The position numbers were made by a program, and so were the translations under genes. The notes under the pieces are model-generated. The model was given only the letters and a program-made list of their open reading frames with translations. It was not told where the DNA came from and made no database searches. Positions 21,962 through 31,930 of a stretch of DNA of 33,381 bases are shown here, one piece after another. This stretch comes from an uncultured Gammaproteobacteria bacterium (GTDB lineage Bacteria; Pseudomonadota; Gammaproteobacteria; Arenicellales; JAANXG01), in the NCBI GenBank assembly GCA_947258975.1, contig CAMYKK010000041.1:1-33381 (forward strand). Direction: 5' to 3'. The number at the start of each line of letters is the position of its first letter. The stretch's first letter is position 1.

Positions 21962-22038
21962 GGCTATGTAGCTCAGCCGGTTAGAGCACGGCACTCATAA
22001 TGCCGGTGTCGGTGGTTCGAGTCCACCCATAGCCACCA
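21962..22038 (+). tRNA. tRNA-Met(CAT), elongator type; island insertion site
   Basis: Complete cloverleaf. Acceptor GGCTATG pairs with CATAGCC, the D-arm is GCTCAGCCGGTTAGAGC, the anticodon loop CTCATAA has CAT at 21996-21998, the T-arm is GGTGG-TTCGAGT-CCACC, and CCA is encoded. An A-T rather than a mismatched first pair and the loop match elongator Met tRNA. Its 3' half is repeated exactly at 31,821-31,868, so it is the attachment site of the adjacent element, which restores the tRNA 3' end. Confidence 0.96.
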
Positions 22039-22041
22039 AGT
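21994..22041 (+). repeat. Attachment site core next to the integrase (attL)
   Basis: 48 bp covering the anticodon loop to the CCA of tRNA-Met plus AGT. It is identical to 31,821-31,868. The integrase gene begins 11 bp further right and reads toward it, the classic arrangement for tRNA-targeting tyrosine recombinases. Confidence 0.85.
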
Positions 22042-22052
22042 TTATCAATAGC

Positions 22053-23135
22053 TTACGACACATTTTTCCCTACCTGTCGATCACCGGTGTGACCAAAGTG
22101 TGACCGACTTCCATCCAAAACCGCGACTGCGGCGCGCACATTGTCCGGCGCGAGGTGCGCATACTTCTCCGTCATGGTCACCGTCGTGTGCCCGAGCAGG
22201 TCGCGCACTTCCGGCAGCGGCACACCGCTGCTCACCAACCAGGCGGCAGTGGTATGGCGCATGTCATGAATCCGAAAGTCGCTGATACCGGCCTTGGCAC
22301 ACGCATCGACAAATCCATTGCGCACGCATTCGATACGCTTTCCCTTGCGGGTGCAAAATACCCAGGGACTCGCCGGGCAATACTTCGCCCGGAACCGCGC
22401 CCGGTTGATCAGCGCGGACCGCGCCACCGTGTTGAGCGGCACGGAGCGCCGTTTCCCGGACTTGGTGTGCACGCCTTCCAGGTAAAACAAACCTTCCTTC
22501 AAATCCACCCGCGACCACTCCAAACCCAGCAACTCGCCGCGCCGGCAGCCGGTATGCAGCGCCAGCCGTATGAAGTCGGGTAGATACACCGACGCCCGCG
22601 GCAAGTCCTCGGCAGCGCGGATCAATGCCTCGGCCTGGCTTCGCGAAATCCAGCGGATCCGGCCTTCACCTTGCTTCGGCTTGCGCCCGGTCACGGGGTT
22701 GGGGATCTCCCACTCCCATTCGCGGATCGCGTAGTTGATGGCTGCAGACAACAGCGATAGCTCCCGATAGATCGTTGCAGGTTTAATCCCTTGTTCCTGA
22801 CGCCACGCGGTGTAACCGCGCACGTCTTTGGCGCGCATCGTGTTCAAACACATTCCGGCGAAGTGGCTCCGTAAGACGGTGACAATCCGCCGGTCGCGTT
22901 CGGCACTGCGTTTCTCCTGTTGGGTCGCGTTGAGATAAGCCACCATCAATTCCTCGAAGGTCCGTGACGGCTGCTCTTCCCATTGCTGGACGCGAAAGGC
23001 CTCCAGCTTCCATTTGGCCTCTAGGGCCTCCGCCTCCTTGCGGTCCGTGGTTCCAGTAGAGCGTCTAACTCTTTTGCCGCTCGGGTCGATATACGAGACC
23101 CACCAGTAGCGGCTCCGTTTGCGTTTATGTGGCAT
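22053..23135 (-). CDS. Tyrosine recombinase / tRNA-Met island integrase
   Basis: Site-specific integrase of 360 residues. The N-terminal Arm-binding-type beta region reads YWWVSYIDPSGKRVRRSTGTTD, followed by a core-binding SAM-like domain (about 58-150). The catalytic residues are all present: Arg198 in HTGCRRGELLGLEW, Lys225 in HTKSGKRRSVPL, His290 and Arg293 in HDMRHTTAAW, His316 in LLGHTTVTMTEKYAH, and nucleophile Tyr325. It ends 11 bp from the attachment core. Its first 115 bases overlap the 3' end of the HTH gene in another frame. It should integrate and, with Xis, excise the island. Its C-terminal codons contain a GTGTGAC-type repeat that recurs at the other end. Confidence 0.95.
   Translation of the reverse strand: MPHKRKRSRYWWVSYIDPSGKRVRRSTGTTDRKEAEALEAKWKLEAFRVQQWEEQPSRTFEELMVAYLNATQQEKRSAERDRRIVTVLRSHFAGMCLNTMRAKDVRGYTAWRQEQGIKPATIYRELSLLSAAINYAIREWEWEIPNPVTGRKPKQGEGRIRWISRSQAEALIRAAEDLPRASVYLPDFIRLALHTGCRRGELLGLEWSRVDLKEGLFYLEGVHTKSGKRRSVPLNTVARSALINRARFRAKYCPASPWVFCTRKGKRIECVRNGFVDACAKAGISDFRIHDMRHTTAAWLVSSGVPLPEVRDLLGHTTVTMTEKYAHLAPDNVRAAVAVLDGSRSHFGHTGDRQVGKNVS
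22087..22104. repeat. GTGTGAC direct-repeat motif near attL (possible arm site)
   Basis: GTGTGACCAAAGTGTGAC, itself two GTGTGAC copies separated by CAAA, lies 46 bp inside the left core and within the integrase 3' end. Close copies occur at 31,697-31,714 (inside the right end) and 31,914-31,930 (outside it). It could be an integrase arm-binding site or simply conserved integrase coding sequence. Confidence 0.4.
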
Positions 23136-23703: not shown

Positions 23704-24567
23704 TCACCTCCCTAAGTAGACATACGTTATGCTGATCCGAGCGTGCCCGAGCTCTTCGGCAATCTGTTGTCGGGCTTGGATATCCAACTCTCGTTGTTTA
23801 CCGCTCAATGTGTCCCGCGATGGGCCGCCTTGCATCGGTGACTTCCAACCGGTGAGTTCGTGATAACGGGTCTGTGCATACGCGTGGCGAAGTCCATGCG
23901 TTTTCGATAAACCCGCTTTACGGGTTTCGTATTCCCAGGTGTGCAAGTGCTGCTTATAGCTCTTGTGAGGCGGGATCATGGATCCGTTTCCCGCTAACCG
24001 CTTCGCTTCTTCCAAGACACCGCGCTGATAGGCGGTGCGGATCGGAATCTCTCGCGGTCTCCCGCCCTTGGTCCAGCTGCCTTTGAGCACCAGTTTGGTG
24101 CCGCGATCTGCCCAACGCGGTTGGATCTTCATCGCCTCCGATCTTCTGAGGCCAAACCCCGCCTGGAGTTTGAAACCGACCCGGGTATAGGGGTCGGTGA
24201 CTTGACGGGTCACTGTGACGGTGAGACTCTGCGCTTTGTTGACGGAAGTTTGCGATCTCCCGTTGAGACCGAACGCCCGGTTACTGTCATAGCCGAGATT
24301 CGGCTTACCGATCTTATGCCCGAGCCAACGGATGGCCGACAGACGATTCATGATTGTCGTGTCACTCAGTCCTTGCTGCTTCCAGCGATTCACGGCCTTA
24401 TTAACGTGCCGATTGCCGATGCTTGGCAATCGAATTCCTCGACAACCCAGGGCATCAATGTCTTTGGCAAATCGAAACGCCATCATCTTGCGCTGATACT
24501 GGGTGGTACGCGAACCGTCCCGGTTCACGCGTAATAGCTTTTGAATATCCCATTGCAAGGGAGTCAT
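23704..24567 (-). CDS. Second tyrosine recombinase (Integrase_1-like)
   Basis: A second, different recombinase of 287-288 residues. The N-terminal SAM-like domain contains NRWKQQGLSDTTIMNRLSAIRWLGHKIGK. The catalytic domain has Arg142 (GFGLRRSEAMKI), Lys168 (SWTKGGRPREIPI), His225 and Arg228 (THGLRHAYAQTRY), His276 (ELGHARISITYVYLG) and nucleophile Tyr285, so it looks active. The HGLRHAYAQ motif, with a variable insertion before the last motif, is typical of the Integrase_1 group found in small islands. GGAGG lies 7 bases ahead of ATG 24567 (GTG 24570 also possible). It is the first gene of the leftward mobility operon. It could act on a different site from the tRNA integrase. Confidence 0.88.
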   Translation of the reverse strand: MTPLQWDIQKLLRVNRDGSRTTQYQRKMMAFRFAKDIDALGCRGIRLPSIGNRHVNKAVNRWKQQGLSDTTIMNRLSAIRWLGHKIGKPNLGYDSNRAFGLNGRSQTSVNKAQSLTVTVTRQVTDPYTRVGFKLQAGFGLRRSEAMKIQPRWADRGTKLVLKGSWTKGGRPREIPIRTAYQRGVLEEAKRLAGNGSMIPPHKSYKQHLHTWEYETRKAGLSKTHGLRHAYAQTRYHELTGWKSPMQGGPSRDTLSGKQRELDIQARQQIAEELGHARISITYVYLGR

Positions 24568-25714
24568 CACATTTCCTCCAATCGTTCGTTCAATCTCCCC
24601 GCCGTTTCCGGCGGACCTGCCTACGTGTCATTAACGTTGAGTGTGAATCCGCGGTCCACGGCGACCTGGCGGGCGCCGAATCCCCCTCAAACAACGAGGC
24701 AAAGCGGATGTTTAACGTCGGTCACGTAGCCCCCGACGACGCCTAATCGAGGCGACGGCAAGTGATCGCAAAAGCAATACAACTTGCCGGGTGTGCAGGC
24801 GGATGGGTCTGCCAAACCATCTGATTCAGGACCAATCTTCGATCAAGAATCGAAATGTCTCCAAACCCCAAGCGGGCACTGTCCGCTCGAAGTCGGATCT
24901 CGACAGGTGAAGTGCATGAGGCGGGTTCATCCCGCCAATACCACTCCACTTAATGGGAGAAAATGCTGAAGGGCTCTAAGACCCAACAACTTAATGGAGG
25001 AAATCCGGCGCGAGCTCTAGATGAACTCTAGGCCCCCTTTCAGCCAGCATGAGGGCTTTGTGATGACCGAATTGCTCTCTTAGATAGAGCGCCGCAGGTC
25101 ATCAAACGGCTGGAAATCTTTCTTTACATCGTCGCCGACACAAAGTATTTGCGGTGATGCACCGAATTTAATCCTTTTAATATCGACGGACAATAGCTAT
25201 ACGGTTCATCCGATTTTGACGATGTAGCCTCCGCAACAGTAGTCCACAATTCCGTATCATTACTCCGTCACTAAATATTTTTCGTTCTTGTAGTCTGTAT
25301 GCCGCGCTGGGATTGGGTTTTTGCGGGTGCCCCGCAGCGCGTCACTACTGACTGACGTCCGCAGTGACGCGCAGAAGCGGTAGACTCGAAATCCTAGAAG
25401 TGTGACGTGCACCGAATAGAAACGAACAACGAAATTCTCCAGCACGTTTCGTTATTTTGAGCTGATCCAACCTCATAGGGCAAATCAGTCCGCTGGAGTG
25501 TCCTGTCTGTAAGTAGCTAAAGGTATTTTCGGACTGCGCGACTCAAGCGACGTCGCGATGTTTTAAAGCCCTCCACGGACCGGGCCGATTTGCTAGATTG
25601 GCCAGTATTGTAGTGAGCTTTTCTAACCCGCTAATCTCGGTTAAAGACGCAAGCACTTGTCACGAAGAATAATTAATTGCATCATGGTATTAGTCCGCAC
25701 GTTAGCTAGCAAAC
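24568..25714. other. 1.1-kb gap between mobility operon and cargo
   Basis: No ORF of credible composition on either strand. It must hold the leftward promoter of the mobility operon and the rightward one of the nucleotidyltransferase operon, but I see no strong consensus. It contains repeat copy R1 (25,091-25,262), a perfect 10-bp hairpin GCGCGTCACT/AGTGACGCGC (arms 25,337-25,346 and 25,363-25,372) that competes with an upstream GCGCTG...CAGCGC pairing, and a 7-bp hairpin AACGAAA/TTTCGTT (25,428-25,453) followed by ATTTTG. A structured RNA or leader is possible. Confidence 0.5.
25091..25262 (+). repeat. Cargo-flanking repeat R1
   Basis: About 170 bp that align along their length with 27,400-27,565 (roughly 70 percent identity by eye). 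A 22-base identical core is at 25,202-25,223 (starting CGGTTCATCCGATTTTGAC), with further blocks such as TCGCCGACACA, AATCCTTT and CAATAG. It is non-coding on both strands. It lies about 450 bp before the nucleotidyltransferase gene. Confidence 0.8.
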
Positions 25715-26677
25715 ATGGATTACCTTTCTATTCTTAAAGATTTTTCTTTATTGGCAGATCGTTGTGAGATATCCAGACGTCTACTTGAAACGATTCGCAA
25801 CGCCTTTCTTGAGACCAAGATTTCAGATGATAAACGATTGACGGCTTTTTGTGCTGGGTCGTTGGCTAGAGAGGAAATTGGGTCTAAATCCGATCTAGAC
25901 ATTTTTGTCGTTACAAGTGAAGACTGTTTGCCACGTTTGTACGAAATCGAGATATACGCCACGTTAATAGAGATTAATCACCAACTGAAATTTCCAGATT
26001 TTAGTAACGACGGAGAATTCTTAAAAATCTACTCGTTAAATGAGATGATGACTTTTACGGGTTCTCCTAGAGATGACCATGAAAATTTTTTCACTGCGCG
26101 CATGCTTTATCTGTTAGAAAGTAAAGCTCTTTCGAACACCGCTGCATATGACTGGTTTCTTAAAGACATTATTCGGCATTATTTCAGGGATGCAACCGAT
26201 CACGAAGAGTTCTTACCGGTTTTCCTGGTTAACGACATTTTGAGGTACTGGAGAACGTTGTGTTTGAATTACGAAGTAATTCGTAACGATGTAGAAAGAC
26301 CATGGAGAAAGAAGAATGTTAATCTAAAGTTCAGCCGAATGCTTACGGTCTTTGGGACTATCGTTCCGGTCGTCGCGAAACCGATAACTGATTCAGACAG
26401 TCTCTTTGAATTGTGTCAGCTTACCCCGATGCAGCGATTAGCGTACGGATTAGAACAGTTGGGAGAGGGCCGATTTGATGGCGGTTTTAATATGTTGTTG
26501 GAAGACTATGAGCAGTTTCTAGCCTGGAAAGAGGATGACGACATTGAGTCGAAAATGACTGACCCAAATGTTAAGAATAGCGCGGATGAGACTGCAAAGC
26601 GTGTTGCTAATTTTCTTTATGAAATTCTCACTAGTGAAAATATTGCATTGGATCTTAAGAAGTATTTGGTGATCTGA
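25715..26677 (+). CDS. Polymerase-beta-superfamily nucleotidyltransferase
   Basis: A 320-residue protein with the nucleotidyltransferase signature AGSLAREEIGSKSDLDIFVV: Gly48-Ser49 of the nucleotide-binding turn and Asp60/Asp62 of the metal-binding pair. The third carboxylate is not obvious (candidates in IEINHQLKFPD). Residues about 100-320 are alpha-helical and carry a segment NLKFSRMLTVFGTIVP that resembles the helical half of standalone minimal NTases. It is not a recognisable CD-NTase (no clear cGAS/DncV core), nor a CCA enzyme. Possible roles are modification of RNA or protein ends with NMP, or nucleotide-signal synthesis. A 2H phosphoesterase begins 1 base after its stop, so the two act together. 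Codon use is AT-rich, foreign compared with the chromosome. Confidence 0.78.
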   Translation: MDYLSILKDFSLLADRCEISRRLLETIRNAFLETKISDDKRLTAFCAGSLAREEIGSKSDLDIFVVTSEDCLPRLYEIEIYATLIEINHQLKFPDFSNDGEFLKIYSLNEMMTFTGSPRDDHENFFTARMLYLLESKALSNTAAYDWFLKDIIRHYFRDATDHEEFLPVFLVNDILRYWRTLCLNYEVIRNDVERPWRKKNVNLKFSRMLTVFGTIVPVVAKPITDSDSLFELCQLTPMQRLAYGLEQLGEGRFDGGFNMLLEDYEQFLAWKEDDDIESKMTDPNVKNSADETAKRVANFLYEILTSENIALDLKKYLVI

Positions 26678-26678
26678 G

Positions 26679-27275
26679 ATGATGGCGCGGTGGTTTATTT
26701 TTCTTGAGATTACTGATCCCGATGTCAACATGCTTTTGAGTTCATTGCGCCATATATTTACAGATGAAGATATGCACCACAATATACATATTACTCTTAA
26801 GGGGCCGTTGAAAGGTAAGATTAATAGACACCAAATTGAGAGTGTTTCGAAAAACTTTTGTGATGAGACGATTCTCTTGGCGGGAACGGGAATCTTCAAA
26901 ACAGAGACCGATTCCGTTGTATATATCCGAGCCAGAAACGATAAACTTTGGAAGGTATGGCTTAAACCGGACTACCCTAGAAAAAAGTACGGATTTAATC
27001 CGCACGTTACTTTGTATAAAGGGCGAGATGGATTATTGGCTAACAAAATATATGAATTTCTTAACAGAGAAAGAATAGAGTTGCTATGTCGTTCTTTCAA
27101 AATCACACCATATTTATCGAAACAAACGCCAATTTTTAGTGATGCGGATAATGAGAAATATCCAGCGAGTTTTGAACGGTTAATTGAAGTTGGAAAAATT
27201 CAACGAAACATCTTAGAGAGAGCTAAGCAACTTATGGAAGAACATGAAAACACTCTCCAGCTTCCTCTCTGGTAA
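26679..27275 (+). CDS. 2H phosphoesterase (LigT/2'-5' ligase-like)
   Basis: A 198-residue protein with both histidine motifs of the 2H superfamily: H-I-T at 37-39 (NIHITLKGPLKG) and H-V-T at 109-111 (FNPHVTLYKG). Spacing, about 72 residues, is right for the two-lobed fold. Members open 2',3'-cyclic phosphates, cleave 2'-5' linked or cyclic oligonucleotides, or ligate tRNA halves in reverse. The C-terminal 60 residues are a helical extension. Start ATG 26679 (26682 also possible) lies 1 base after the nucleotidyltransferase stop, so translation is coupled. The phage anti-CBASS protein Acb1 and viral 2-5A-degrading enzymes are also 2H proteins; whether this one degrades the partner's product or repairs RNA with it is open. 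Confidence 0.82.
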   Translation: MMARWFIFLEITDPDVNMLLSSLRHIFTDEDMHHNIHITLKGPLKGKINRHQIESVSKNFCDETILLAGTGIFKTETDSVVYIRARNDKLWKVWLKPDYPRKKYGFNPHVTLYKGRDGLLANKIYEFLNRERIELLCRSFKITPYLSKQTPIFSDADNEKYPASFERLIEVGKIQRNILERAKQLMEEHENTLQLPLW

Positions 27276-27399
27276 TTGGCAATAACAGTTGGCGTCATTA
27301 GATTTGACGAGTATTGCTGACTCAACGCGATTTATGTCCTTAATAAAGTTGAAACTTTCTGGAGATCTGAAAATAGAAGTTTCTAATAAAGAAAGGGAC

Positions 27400-27565
27400 C
27401 GCCGGTAATCAGACGGCTAGAAATTATTCATTAATCATCGCCGACACAGAATATTGGCTGCGATGGGCTGTAATTAATCCTTTCTACCCCCGCAAGCAAT
27501 AGTTATGCGGTTCATCCGATTTTGACGATATAGCCCCACCACTATTTCCATCATTACACCATCAG
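27400..27565 (+). repeat. Cargo-flanking repeat R2
   Basis: The second copy of the 170-bp repeat; core 27,508-27,529 identical to 25,202-25,223. It begins about 125 bp after the 2H phosphoesterase stop and ends about 55 bp before the module B promoter. Together with R1 it brackets the two-gene module A in direct orientation, about 2.3 kb apart. Confidence 0.8.
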
Positions 27566-28168: not shown

Positions 28169-29734
28169 GTGCCTCGCAGAACGAGAACAAAAAACAGTCA
28201 CGTTAACCAGCTTGGAAAGCGGCCCCACAACGAAATAATTTGTGTTGAGTTTTCCGAACCTGCTTTCTTGGAAGCAGTAAGGGAAACTAGCCAAGTCACA
28301 TATCAAGACTGGTCCCCGAATAACCAAGTAGCATATTTAGCGAGCTATTTGGCTTCTCTTAATGCTAAATCACTCGTCATTGAGCATCACTACATTGACA
28401 GGCATTTCATTGAAGAGGTTAGCCTTTATTATTCAAAAAGTTTGCTGCCTCGGCAGAATTGGACAACCCGTATTCATGTTTTCGCAACCCTAGTTGACCA
28501 AACGATTATTGACCAGACAATCGCGGAGGCTTCTTCGGGAAACCTTTCCTCCGCCACTAGAAAGCTACAGCGAGGGTACTGTGGTTATATTGTCATACGT
28601 CCTCTACCATCCGTACCAATTGGTCGTACCGTACTTAAACACCTCTCGGATAGAGGGGAGCGCTTTTTTCCTACTTGCTATACGTATCCGGTTCATTTTC
28701 TAGGTTTTAAGCTCACAGTACATGGCTTAGCTTTTCAACAGCAGGATCGTGCTGTTGGGGCATGTGCGACGACAGCAATCTGGTCCGCTCTGCAGCGCTT
28801 AACACGCCGCGAAGGGGCTCGACCGCCGACGTCTTCTGAAATTACGCAGGCCGCCGTTCGTCATTACCTTCCGCACGGACGTCCATTCCCGTCATCAGGG
28901 CTGGCAATTGAACAAATTTGTGAAGCATTGCGGTGTTTCGGGTTCGCACCGGATCTCTTAGCTGCACACGAATCTACCCCCGCTACAGAGTTTCTTACAT
29001 TTCTTGATATCTATTTGCGTTCCGGTATACCGCTTATCTTGGCTATTCGCACCGGTAATGAAGGTCACGCCGTAACGGTTGTTGGTTATGCTTCAAATAA
29101 AGAAGTTGCTCCGTACGAAGTCGAAATTGGACAAAAACGCCACGTAGTTCGAATCCACAATCTAGCCAGTGAGCGGATTTTCATACACGACGATCGCTTG
29201 GGACCTTATGCGAGAGCTAAGTTTTGGACTGAGGATCGCTGCGACGGAAATGGGAATCCGTTCGAGCAACTAATGGTCAATATTGATTGGCCGAATGGTC
29301 AGCCACAACAAGCCGAAGTCTATTACGTGGCAGCCCCTTTATACCCAAAGCTTCGTACCAGCGCATCAGAATTATTCGAAGCAGCCATGGAGCTGGTCCC
29401 GATACTTAGTGACGCACTAGGAGATGACCAGGGACAACTAGGTTTGGTTGTGCACTTCGAGCGTTCAGGAACATATCAGTCTAGTTTATATGAGAGGAAG
29501 ATTGATTCGAAACGACTCGTCACATTTCAAAAGTCAATTGCGTTGAGTCGATACATTGGAGTGCACCGGTGGTACTGGGGAGACAGACCTTTCATGGATA
29601 CCGTGTGGGATACAACAGACACTATGCGAGAGACAAAATATAAAGAACATTTGCTGGGGGCTGTATGTCTCGATTCCGAATTCGACCAGTTAACTGATGA
29701 GTTCGCCAAGTTTTTTGACGTAGTTTCCGGCTAG
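28169..29734 (+). CDS. Papain/C39-like cysteine peptidase, multi-domain
   Basis: 521 residues. Residues about 185-350 carry a papain-like layout in canonical order: Gln192 then Cys199 in RAVGACATTAIWSALQ (the Q-x6-C spacing of papain folds), His300 in EGHAVTVVGY, and Asp341/Asp342 in FIHDDRLGPYAR. GHAVTVVGY is the hallmark His motif of C39-type peptidases. About 180 N-terminal residues (YLASYLASLNAKSLVIEH, RGYCGYIVIRPLP) and 160 C-terminal residues (SELFEAAMELVPILSDALG, FEQLMVNIDWP) are extra domains I do not recognise, probably for recognising a partner. No signal peptide, membrane span or ABC exporter is present, so this is not bacteriocin processing. Start GTG 28169. Alternative chemistry (transglutaminase or acyltransferase) cannot be excluded. 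Confidence 0.72.
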   Translation: MPRRTRTKNSHVNQLGKRPHNEIICVEFSEPAFLEAVRETSQVTYQDWSPNNQVAYLASYLASLNAKSLVIEHHYIDRHFIEEVSLYYSKSLLPRQNWTTRIHVFATLVDQTIIDQTIAEASSGNLSSATRKLQRGYCGYIVIRPLPSVPIGRTVLKHLSDRGERFFPTCYTYPVHFLGFKLTVHGLAFQQQDRAVGACATTAIWSALQRLTRREGARPPTSSEITQAAVRHYLPHGRPFPSSGLAIEQICEALRCFGFAPDLLAAHESTPATEFLTFLDIYLRSGIPLILAIRTGNEGHAVTVVGYASNKEVAPYEVEIGQKRHVVRIHNLASERIFIHDDRLGPYARAKFWTEDRCDGNGNPFEQLMVNIDWPNGQPQQAEVYYVAAPLYPKLRTSASELFEAAMELVPILSDALGDDQGQLGLVVHFERSGTYQSSLYERKIDSKRLVTFQKSIALSRYIGVHRWYWGDRPFMDTVWDTTDTMRETKYKEHLLGAVCLDSEFDQLTDEFAKFFDVVSG

Positions 29735-29881: not shown

Positions 29882-30029
29882 CGTGTCTGGTAGTTGCGAC
29901 AAAATAATAACGGGGTAGTGGGATTTCTGGTTAGAGGTCCACGCAGAATGGATTCGCAAACCTATGATATTTAATTTACCCTAGTCTGTACCCTATTTTT
30001 GCTTTTTTATTTTCTATTACTTGAGCGTC

Positions 30030-31409
30030 ATGATGAGAACCCAGGACCCAGGGAATAAGAATTACGGGCGGTCGCTTATCAAGAACATTGCTCAAATCTT
30101 ATGGACTATCGCAGCATCGCTTTGTTTTATATTGCTGCTTACGAAATTATTGATGGTGGGCGCGGAATCTCCGGACGCCATGGTACTAGCCAAGATTGGC
30201 GGAATACTCGCGCTGCTTTATGTTCTTTTCTTGCTGGAAGGTTTGCAAGTAGCGGGACTTTTAATCAAAGATCACTCAGAAGAGGCGATTAGACAATATG
30301 TTACTTCCGCGGGTTATGGCTCCAAAGAGAAAAAAATACTAAATATCGCGAGAATATTTATCGGAACGTTCGATTCCTTTGTTACGGGAAGACAAATCAT
30401 GGTCATCATGACGGTGGTTTCCATAGCCACTTTATTAGCATCGCTCACCATTTCGCCTAATTTTCAGCAGGGCACCTGGTTGGGCCTGAACATATTCCGA
30501 GAAAAAGTTGTAGGACTACTAAATACCCCGGTTTTTTCGTTTATTTCTTCTACGTTGTTTCCAGCATGGATTAGTCAATTACTTCCACAATTCGCCGCGG
30601 ATAATCGCGCTATCTTATTCGTAACAGTGCCTGGTACAAAATGGGTCATGGCAGCAGCATCCGCGTTGGATAAAGCACAAGCGGGTTATCCAGCTCATTG
30701 GTTATTACGGGTTCTGCAAAAGTTCGGAATTTTCAATAAAAAGGAGGTTATAGCTGTTGGTCGAGACAAGTTTCATGCGAGCGCGATAGCCTTCTATGGT
30801 CGAGGTAAGGAAAGCCATAAGATTACTATACGGCTCGGTGCGAGAACGAAATATCGAGAAGAACTCCGATTTGTCTATCACCGAGGAGAAACACATGAGA
30901 TTTTCCATAAAGTAAGTTTATTGGCCAAAGTTACCGGAGATATAGAAATTTCGATGGATACACCGGACAGTGTGGAAACTGCGGTCCCAAAAGTTGAAGA
31001 GATTGAAAATGAGTCTCAGTATATCTATGTCGTACGCATCCCGCTAAATAAGCCACTGCCACGAAGCTTGAATTCGCCCGATGTTGTTACGTTAATTGCG
31101 GAGTATGAAACTGAAGAGGATTCGTCGGATGAATCCGAGGGCCGATGGGTTGAATTCGTTACAAGTCTACCTATGGCTTACGGCGAGATTCAGATCGTGC
31201 CCCCTCGAGGTCGTATGATTTGTCATCCAATAATATCGGTATTTGATTCTTCACGTAATACAGACACCGCGCTTCTAGATGCTGATCTAACGAACGCATG
31301 GACGATTCAGCACGAGACAAATAATTCAATCATCGCGCATATCTCTTACCCCTTAATCGGATTTATATACACGCTTACCTATGCTAGCCTTCTAAAAGAA
31401 AATGATTAG
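30030..31409 (+). CDS. Multi-pass membrane protein with large soluble C-terminal domain
   Basis: 459 residues from ATG 30030 (TTG 30021 and ATG 30033 are alternatives; no clear Shine-Dalgarno). Hydrophobic segments are at about 21-44, 52-78, 121-141 and 165-188, with a further one near 430-452. Between them residues about 235-425 form a soluble, beta-rich and acidic region (IAVGRDKFHASAIAFYGRG, ISMDTPDSVETAVPKVEE). The loop after segment 2 (LIKDHSEEAIRQYV) and the LFPAWISQLLPQFAADNR stretch faintly recall the layout of DUF21/CNNM-type membrane domains, but I would not assign it. As the last large gene of module B it is the natural candidate for a membrane-acting effector. It is 4 codons from overlapping the next small gene. 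Confidence 0.72.
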   Translation: MMRTQDPGNKNYGRSLIKNIAQILWTIAASLCFILLLTKLLMVGAESPDAMVLAKIGGILALLYVLFLLEGLQVAGLLIKDHSEEAIRQYVTSAGYGSKEKKILNIARIFIGTFDSFVTGRQIMVIMTVVSIATLLASLTISPNFQQGTWLGLNIFREKVVGLLNTPVFSFISSTLFPAWISQLLPQFAADNRAILFVTVPGTKWVMAAASALDKAQAGYPAHWLLRVLQKFGIFNKKEVIAVGRDKFHASAIAFYGRGKESHKITIRLGARTKYREELRFVYHRGETHEIFHKVSLLAKVTGDIEISMDTPDSVETAVPKVEEIENESQYIYVVRIPLNKPLPRSLNSPDVVTLIAEYETEEDSSDESEGRWVEFVTSLPMAYGEIQIVPPRGRMICHPIISVFDSSRNTDTALLDADLTNAWTIQHETNNSIIAHISYPLIGFIYTLTYASLLKEND

Positions 31410-31714: not shown

Positions 31715-31820
31715 GTAAAGCTGTCCTCGCGTGTCCATTCGTGGCCTTTCCAGTCACAAACGCGTGGGATCGGCGTGCATAACTGATTGAAAAACAAAAA
31801 GCTATTGGGACTTGGATGCC

Positions 31821-31868
31821 CTCATAATGCCGGTGTCGGTGGTTCGAGTCCACCCATAGCCACCAAGT
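31821..31868 (+). repeat. Right attachment core (attR)
   Basis: A perfect 48-bp copy of 21,994-22,041. It has only the tRNA-Met 3' half from the anticodon loop onward; the 5' side is different, so the gene is not intact here. It marks the right boundary of the island. Confidence 0.85.
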
Positions 31869-31930
31869 AAATCAATAGGTTACGTAACATTTTTACGTAT
31901 CCTCTGGTCGCCGGTGTGACCAAGTGTGAC
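31869..31930 (-). pseudogene. Relic of a related integrase 3' end beyond attR
   Basis: The sequence after the right core follows that after the left core (ATCAATAG, TTACG, ACATTTTT, CCGGTGTGACCAA, GTGTGAC), with substitutions and small indels. That left-hand sequence is the integrase 3' end. It implies a second, related element once sat in tandem at this tRNA and was then truncated at about 31,930, where transposase sequence begins. Confidence 0.55.

Follow-up and report, generated by a model that had tools for sequence, protein, structure and literature searches.

The window analysed here, a stretch of 33,381 nucleotides that constitutes one whole contig from the genome of an uncultured gammaproteobacterium, carries two adjoining genes that encode a nucleotidyltransferase (NTase) and a phosphoesterase of the 2H superfamily. 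We found that this pair recurs across at least six phyla, and that beside some relatives of the NTase the 2H protein is replaced by a DEDDh 3'-5' exonuclease. Both the pair and the exchange of its partner are solid observations, and surprising ones. A recurring pair with an exchangeable cutting enzyme hints at a write-and-erase switch that has gone unrecognised. An earlier note on this DNA, made from the sequence alone, had described an NTase with a GS...SDLD motif followed one base later by a 2H protein with HIT and HVT motifs, and the open reading frames (ORFs) confirm this description:

25715-26677, plus strand: NTase, the proposed writer, 320 amino acids, ATG start, similar to PDC-M70A
26679-27275, plus strand: 2H phosphoesterase, the proposed eraser, 198 amino acids, ATG start

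The NTase contains the motif GSX10DXD (G48-S49-X10-D60-L-D62), which is the catalytic GS...DxD signature of Pol-beta-type nucleotidyltransferases. Its residues 20-295 are matched by the PADLOC model PDC-M70A (PDLC04778; E 4.2e-27, 93.4 bits), the Pfam families Polbeta (E 8.6e-5) and NTP_transf_2 (E 0.0011) fall slightly under their curated cut-offs, and SidM_N also stays under its own (15.6 vs 27 bits). Invariant in all 60 NTases compared are, among others, G48, S49, R52, S59, D60 and D62, together with G116, D121, T127, R129, L131 and E135. According to an excerpt of PMC11646218, the third acidic residue of this fold usually belongs to a strand that comes later in the sheet. In the window protein the corresponding position of strand 3 (residues 105-107) is K104, and D121 is a candidate, from the alignment, to replace the usual third carboxylate.

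The structure of the NTase was predicted with confidence (pLDDT 94.4, pTM 0.92). A second look at the Foldseek hits gave Z 13.4 for DrrA (267 residues aligned) and Z 12.8 and 11.9 for GlnE, the tool itself warning that in helical models values up to about 13 can reflect a common arrangement. These alignments extend over 258-267 residues, with the NTase domain and the helical half arranged alike, and the top rows are all NTases, which favours a true relation. Most entries of AadA and AAD(9) reach Z 7.0-8.3 and MNT proteins Z 4.4-5.6, the scores then dropping to at most 4.2 for HalB, 3.4 for URT1 and 3.3-3.5 for CdnE. A sequence profile of the NTase searched against solved structures recovered short NTases, DrrA and MNT-type proteins (E 3e-6 to 3e-5) in the motif region only. 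The predicted fold thus points to the protein and drug adenylyltransferases (DrrA, GlnE, AadA) and lies far from the CD-NTases. The earlier note had held that the protein is not a recognisable CD-NTase, and the analysis supports the view that it is not a standard one: in addition to the low CdnE scores, the PADLOC cyclase model matches 55 residues (24-78, E 0.0068), and on these two grounds an assignment to the CD-NTases and to cyclic-oligonucleotide-based antiphage signalling (CBASS) seems unlikely.

The second protein carries the motifs H37-I-T39 and H109-V-T111, of which H37, T39 and H109 are invariant in 22 of 22 2H rows and position 111 is T or S. PF13563 (2_5_RNA_ligase2) matches it just under the cut-off of 27 bits (26.8 bits, E 5.9e-6). 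The predicted structure (pLDDT 87, pTM 0.82, one segment below 50) resembles YjcG (Z 12.0, 146 residues aligned at 2.9 A) and a plant cyclic phosphodiesterase (Z 11.9), and further neighbours are Acb1 (Z 9.6), LigT (Z 9.3), Usb1 (Z 9.1), AKAP18 (Z 8.8) and 2',5'-phosphodiesterases (Z about 8). Two H-x-T/S motifs and a 2H fold thus place the protein in the 2H superfamily. It was rejected as a LigT/ThpR RNA 2',3'-cyclic phosphodiesterase (TIGR02258, 17.2 bits vs the 65.7 required), and no PADLOC model matched it at E values up to 1. Public models miss some members of the family: the 2H protein of locus L013 (loci are numbered L002 to L092) has no Pfam match at E 0.01, and that of L017 just one at E 0.0055.

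Such neighbours bear on the idea that the pair heals RNA ends, the 2H protein opening the 2',3'-cyclic phosphate that a nuclease has produced, after which lost nucleotides would be restored by the NTase. YjcG, LigT and the plant enzyme are among the closest 2H folds, and excerpts of PMC7824862 and PMC9503650 assign both 2H enzymes and Pol-beta NTases to RNA repair. However, the Pfam scan of six window proteins at E values up to 1 showed neither an RNA ligase nor a kinase or an RlaP NTase, and these are likewise missing from the 25 most frequent of the 113 Pfam families in 87 neighbouring ORFs. Moreover, the fold of the NTase is closer to protein adenylyltransferases than to tailing enzymes such as URT1, and an exonuclease variant would remove ends rather than heal them. 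We regard RNA-end repair as improbable. The earlier note had proposed either such a repair pair or a pair making and erasing a signal, and did not name in this inference the class of protein and drug adenylyltransferases to which the modelled fold of the NTase points.

To follow the pair across genomes, we scanned species genomes and obtained 190 relatives of the NTase, of which the 80 best-scoring loci were kept, 27 from its own close group and 53 others. A quick maximum-likelihood tree, computed for 65 rows with SH-aLRT support only, places the window NTase within a branch (support 100) that comprises 25 rows; the remaining 40 lie on its far side. The branch covers 24 of the 27 close loci, the fragments L020, L037 and L059 having been assigned by identity alone, and 35 of the 53 other loci were placed in the tree. 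L004 sits on a long branch (2.01) and L003 and L005 share a long stem (2.2), which makes their positions unsure.

Partner profiles were built from genes seen downstream and searched in the ORFs around each NTase, seeds matching themselves. Across the 27 close loci, the partner belongs to the 2H family in 22 and is a DEDDh exonuclease in four; in the remaining one (L022) the contig ends. The 2H gene lies directly downstream of the NTase gene in 21 of the 22 loci, at -4 to +15 nucleotides. The exception is L014, where a gene for a 2H-methyltransferase fusion adjoins the NTase gene upstream in divergent orientation, and the gene of a 2H-SAK protein (PF22547, E 6e-19) stands directly downstream, overlapping the end of the NTase gene. 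When the window 2H protein was used alone as a query against 5,908 ORFs (window and 85 fetched loci), 22 other ORFs matched, 21 at E 8e-34 to 2e-4 and that of L014 at 0.012; all adjoin close-group NTases, and no ORF matched at any other of the 85 loci. With leave-one-out profiles, all 22 2H rows were recovered, none at an E value above 4e-27. The co-occurrence that the earlier note wished to see examined is thus observed in 22 of 27 close loci and exceeds chance.

The profile of the 2H family was run over 26 whole genomes with close-group loci, L020 left out. Exactly one match was found in 21 of them, each beside the NTase by its coordinates, and none in the other five, namely the four exonuclease genomes and that of L022; as these genomes were picked by their NTase, they do not give the frequency of 2H genes occurring without one. 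That the two genes form a linked unit on an island, as had been suggested, agrees with their translational coupling, with their recurrence across phyla and with their position on an island at a tRNA-Met gene (see below). It could be argued that they are independent cargo genes travelling together without a shared function, since they lie on a mobile island with further, unrelated cargo. The partner counts (22/27 and 4/27), genes that overlap by 1 to 4 bases, and the spread over at least six phyla make this most improbable.

Homologues of the NTase standing mostly alone would have spoken against a linked pair. This is not seen in the close group, in which 26 of 27 NTases have a 2H or exonuclease neighbour and the other stands at a contig end, although it would describe the distant group, in which 42 of the 53 loci have none of the five tested partner profiles adjoining the NTase. 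In L037, the NTase lacks its active-site half beside a 2H protein with intact motifs, and a search of that genome found no other piece of an NTase. Two further broken NTases were discarded: the gene of L020 contains a run of N, that is an assembly gap, and the other half of that of L059 lies on a different contig of the same genome.

In the four loci without a 2H partner, the exonuclease gene is divergent from the NTase gene (L027, L028) or upstream on the same strand and overlapping (L033, L036). The exonucleases of L028 and L033 resemble that of CBASS, matching the PADLOC model 'Effector, Exonuclease' (PDLC00753; E 2e-42 and 7e-42) and the solved chain 7t2s (E 1.5e-27 and 2.7e-26), which we take to be Cap18. 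For L027 and L036, the assignment comes solely from the profile made with the four exonuclease loci.

This family name in PADLOC could be read as a sign of second messenger signalling, the NTase making a linear or cyclic oligonucleotide that the 2H protein or the exonuclease degrades, with the effector encoded elsewhere. Acb1, a phage protein with the 2H fold in common, and the 2',5'-phosphodiesterases stand among the closest folds of the 2H protein, and HalB, a maker of oligodeoxyadenylate, among those of the NTase (Z 4.2). However, the CD-NTases stay at Z 3.3 to 3.5 vs 13 for DrrA, and the cyclase model matches 55 residues of the NTase at E 0.0068. Moreover, most loci consist of two genes without a recurring effector: the commonest Pfam family in the 87 neighbouring ORFs occurs in just three of them, and PADLOC found no family at E values up to 1 in five other scanned window proteins, so no CBASS effector. 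We regard a second messenger as improbable, to about the same degree as RNA-end repair.

The reading that we tentatively favour is a two-gene writer-eraser module, in which the NTase modifies a protein or RNA by adding nucleoside monophosphates (NMPs), probably as a short RNA-like tail, and its partner trims them. That one NTase architecture is accompanied now by a 2H protein and now by a DEDDh exonuclease suggests that both act on the product of the NTase rather than being substrates of it. Catalysis by 2H enzymes generally involves a neighbouring hydroxyl of the ribose or a cyclic phosphate, and the targets of DEDDh enzymes are the 3' ends of nucleic acids; the product should therefore be RNA-like. 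The linked pair, the exchange of its partner, the conserved motifs and the folds are what the analysis shows, whereas every activity is inferred, as are the acceptor and its tail, which member is toxic, and the role in the cell. The NTase would transfer an NMP, probably AMP, from a nucleoside triphosphate to a hydroxyl of a cellular target, either in the side chain of a protein or at the 3' end of an RNA, and would probably repeat the transfer to give a short RNA-like tail. The 2H protein, made from the same transcript, would cleave ribose phosphodiester bonds of this product, undoing or limiting the modification. The exonuclease of the four relatives would share that one job by trimming the nucleotide chain from its 3' end.

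A precedent for such a tail is MntA, which, in an excerpt of PMC7641770, adds three AMPs in a row to one tyrosine by means of GSX10DXD; a chain of this type would fit both an RNA-like product and the fold of a protein adenylyltransferase. Removal of AMP from protein by enzymes of other folds is described in an excerpt of PMC12663964 for RNase Z (nuclease fold) and SidD (phosphatase fold). The locus L037, as one case, hints that the NTase is the harmful member. In the neighbourhood of restriction-modification and candidate defence genes, a mobile cassette of this kind is most likely a growth-arrest or toxin-antidote switch. A more specific version, in which mobile toxin-antidote or defence cassettes carry a GlnE- or DrrA-like NTase that writes a short oligonucleotide tail on a target in the cell and an interchangeable 3'-end nuclease, the 2H protein or the Cap18-like exonuclease, acts as the antidote by trimming it, is possible but doubtful.

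Several observations weigh against the writer-eraser module. Foldseek returned nothing at E 0.001 or better for the model of either protein, the best hits being DrrA at 1.2e-3 for the NTase and one at 2.7e-3 for the 2H protein, and the caution about helical models applies to the Z values that carry the fold assignment. A homology between the NTase and GlnE by profile was rejected, as the GlnE of the same genome aligned over the motif only (36 columns, 31% probability). The nearest folds work on proteins or drugs rather than RNA, and the strand-3 column is acidic in only three of the 25 close rows (L023, L027, L028). L037 is a single locus from an uncultured genome, and the 42 distant loci without a tested partner indicate that the NTase fold need not always have an eraser. 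To our knowledge, no activity has been reported for any member of this pair. Finally, the excerpt of PMC12663964 states that the DEDDh exonuclease RNase T fails to remove AMP from protein, and in an excerpt of PMC9122588 a catalytically dead Cap18 left CBASS protection unchanged, so that the role of that exonuclease family is unclear.

The roles could also be reversed, as in the HEPN/MNT (HepT/MntA) toxin-antitoxin systems of type VII, the 2H protein or exonuclease being a nuclease toxin that the NTase silences by AMPylation. The motif has the same spacing as that of MntA, the NTase belongs to the fold class of protein adenylyltransferases with MNT at Z about 5, all partners hydrolyse phosphate esters, and the unit is small, mobile, made of two genes and sporadically distributed. 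In addition, the 2H protein of L030 (6894-9620) is fused to GNAT and PIN-like parts, and both domains are known from toxins. However, a single NTase architecture would need to recognise partners of unrelated folds, no tyrosine is invariant across the 22 2H rows, L037 keeps an intact 2H protein beside an NTase without an active site, and in the distant group many NTases of full length stand without any of the tested partners. The window NTase, with 320 amino acids and a long helical half, is not a minimal one, and its partner is a 2H protein, with no HEPN family detected in it by the Pfam scan at E values up to 1. We consider a type VII-like arrangement unlikely, though it is the main rival of the favoured reading.

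Compared with other known systems, the pair resembles PDC-M70 by the match of the M70A model and by the gene order, NTase then partner, seen in L003 and L005, whereas the window partner is a 2H protein instead of the TIM barrel M70B and the NTases lie on separate branches. The NTase belongs to a candidate group that is already in PADLOC, and the 2H and Cap18-like partnerships are outside that definition. DrrA (SidM) and GlnE share the fold over the whole length of the NTase, and DrrA forms with SidD a known writer-eraser pair (excerpt of PMC12663964); in contrast, the sequence alignment with them is limited to the NTase motif, and the eraser of the window is a 2H protein and not of the phosphatase fold. 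MenT and AbiEii toxins are likewise NTases of mobile two-gene units, and MenT is reported to extend tRNA acceptor ends, but no such chain appears among the best 50 fold matches listed for the window NTase. The case also differs in the partner, as we know of no MenT or AbiEii antitoxin that is a phosphodiesterase. Among the literature matches listed, titles and the beginnings of abstracts mention no NTase-2H pair and no PDC-M70, most subscription papers lying outside this search.

Restriction-modification or candidate defence genes touch eight of the 27 close loci, a count for which there is no background rate for comparison. In L023 and L026, the 2H protein forms the front part of fusions with complete Type IIG enzymes (PDLC03603, E 5e-177 and 8e-171), its motifs can be read in a fusion to a protein similar to Type IIG enzymes in L025, and it is fused to Type II methyltransferases (PDLC03328) in L014 and L032. 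In L031 (3-5873), the pair stands directly behind HsdM, HsdS, Fic and HsdR, and in L017 it follows PDC-M34A/B. An ASCH gene of L030 (9611-10195), after the 2H fusion, matches PDC-M11B, and L023 also has a PDC-M62A/B pair nearby. In several lineages, restriction-modification enzymes have thus become linked to the pair, while other close loci lie among housekeeping genes. As a separate observation, a conserved gene of about 212 codons, without a Pfam match at E 0.01, comes after the Type IIG fusions of L023 and L026.

Outside the close group, the downstream genes vary. A histidine phosphatase is encoded directly downstream of the NTase in 11 of the 53 other loci; nine of these 11 were seeds of the profile, and L004 and L042 were checked with Pfam. 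In L048, the histidine phosphatase gene is elsewhere nearby and not directly downstream. Four relatives of the NTase are found on plasmids (E 0.001) with differing downstream genes: none in L002 (E. coli), a TIM barrel matching PDC-M70B (E 1e-105 or better) in L003 and L005, and a histidine phosphatase in L004. The distant group comprises L003, L004, L005 and L039-L092, several of them in chromosomes of Thalassospira and Bradyrhizobium.

A plasmid search with the 2H proteins of the window, L026 and L017 gave no match. The 2H-methyltransferase of L014 matched 140 plasmid records, none covering 80% of it, and the best 20 of the 140 matches start at residue 208 or later, leaving the 2H part uncovered. 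A viral origin was rejected: none of 38 pattern matches in viral_contigs was a relative, the phage collection had no match to the NTase, and no PHROG family matched either protein at E 0.01. Vertical inheritance among the kin of the source organism was likewise rejected, the NTase being present in none of 59 other genomes at E 0.001. Among 398 genomes of the phylum, the M70A model matched seven, including the source genome and three with just short N-terminal matches, and the 2H profile matched the source genome alone.

The pair is carried by an island, the ends of which were recognised from the following features:

21962-22038, plus strand: tRNA-Met(cat), integration site at the left end of the island
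22053-23135, minus strand: tyrosine recombinase (Phage_integrase, PF00589, E 6.5e-31), adjoining tRNA-Met
21991-22096, plus strand: left copy of a 106-nucleotide island-end repeat, consisting of the 3' part of tRNA-Met and the 3' end of the integrase gene
31818-31923, plus strand: right copy of this repeat (86%), with the 3' half of the tRNA
23704-24570, minus strand: Integrase_1-type tyrosine recombinase (PF12835, E 1.9e-11; PF12834, E 5e-10)

The 106-nucleotide direct repeat starts within tRNA-Met(cat), the 3' half of which is found again at the far side; together with the integrase at 22053-23135, this indicates a tRNA-targeted island of about 9.8 kb. The GC content is 0.40 and 0.39 in the bins at 26-28 kb vs 0.53-0.61 in those at 7-25 kb. 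The island cargo also includes unrelated genes. A protein of 521 amino acids (28169-29734, plus strand) has a weak match to C39-like peptidases (E 0.22) and is resembled by an ORF of L014 (8709-9431, minus strand) two genes past the 2H-SAK gene. The last large ORF before the right end (30021-31409, plus strand) encodes a protein of 462 amino acids, membrane-bound in appearance, for which no family matched at a useful E value.

Direct repeats around the pair had been noticed before, and two imperfect repeat pairs are indeed present, 25128-25177/27434-27483 (78%) and 25191-25229/27497-27535 (92%). Both are spaced 2306 nucleotides apart and thus bracket the NTase and 2H genes. They are parts of a dispersed repeat:

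25090-25375, plus strand: upstream copy, adjoining the PF12835-like integrase gene
27399-27535, plus strand: downstream partial copy, 78% over 138 nucleotides

The two copies align over about 138 nucleotides (25090-25240 vs 27399-27535, 78%), and a hairpin-forming palindrome (25337-25372) terminates the upstream copy. The repeats are not exclusive to the pair and belong to a dispersed family often found near PF12835-like integrase genes in the source genome and its genus. The 286-nucleotide region occurs again in the source genome, and seven of 21 searched genomes were positive, five of these belonging to the genus, of which six genomes were searched, the source genome included. A PF12835-like integrase gene is close to the repeat in 11 of 24 fetched repeat stretches, some of which overlap. 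Among the places listed, two copies enclosing a pair on one contig are found in the window only. The partial copy that follows the 2H gene makes it likely that the two genes were inserted, or are carried, together. The dispersed repeat may be a recombination site of the PF12835-like integrase or a regulatory region, and it is plausible, though unproven, that this integrase moves a repeat-marked cassette.

If the writer-eraser reading is right, the pair would represent a mobile nucleotidylation switch with a built-in eraser, in which the folds of the eraser are swapped while the chemistry is kept. This would assign a function to part of PDC-M70, a group as yet without a name, and offer a substrate class for the Cap18-like exonucleases, and the two genes would provide a simple system for direct tests of the nucleotidylation of protein or RNA and of its removal. 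If the more doubtful antidote version were true, the cassettes would constitute a type of toxin-antitoxin system with an enzymatic eraser of swappable fold, and this would suggest the same eraser role for Cap18 in CBASS.

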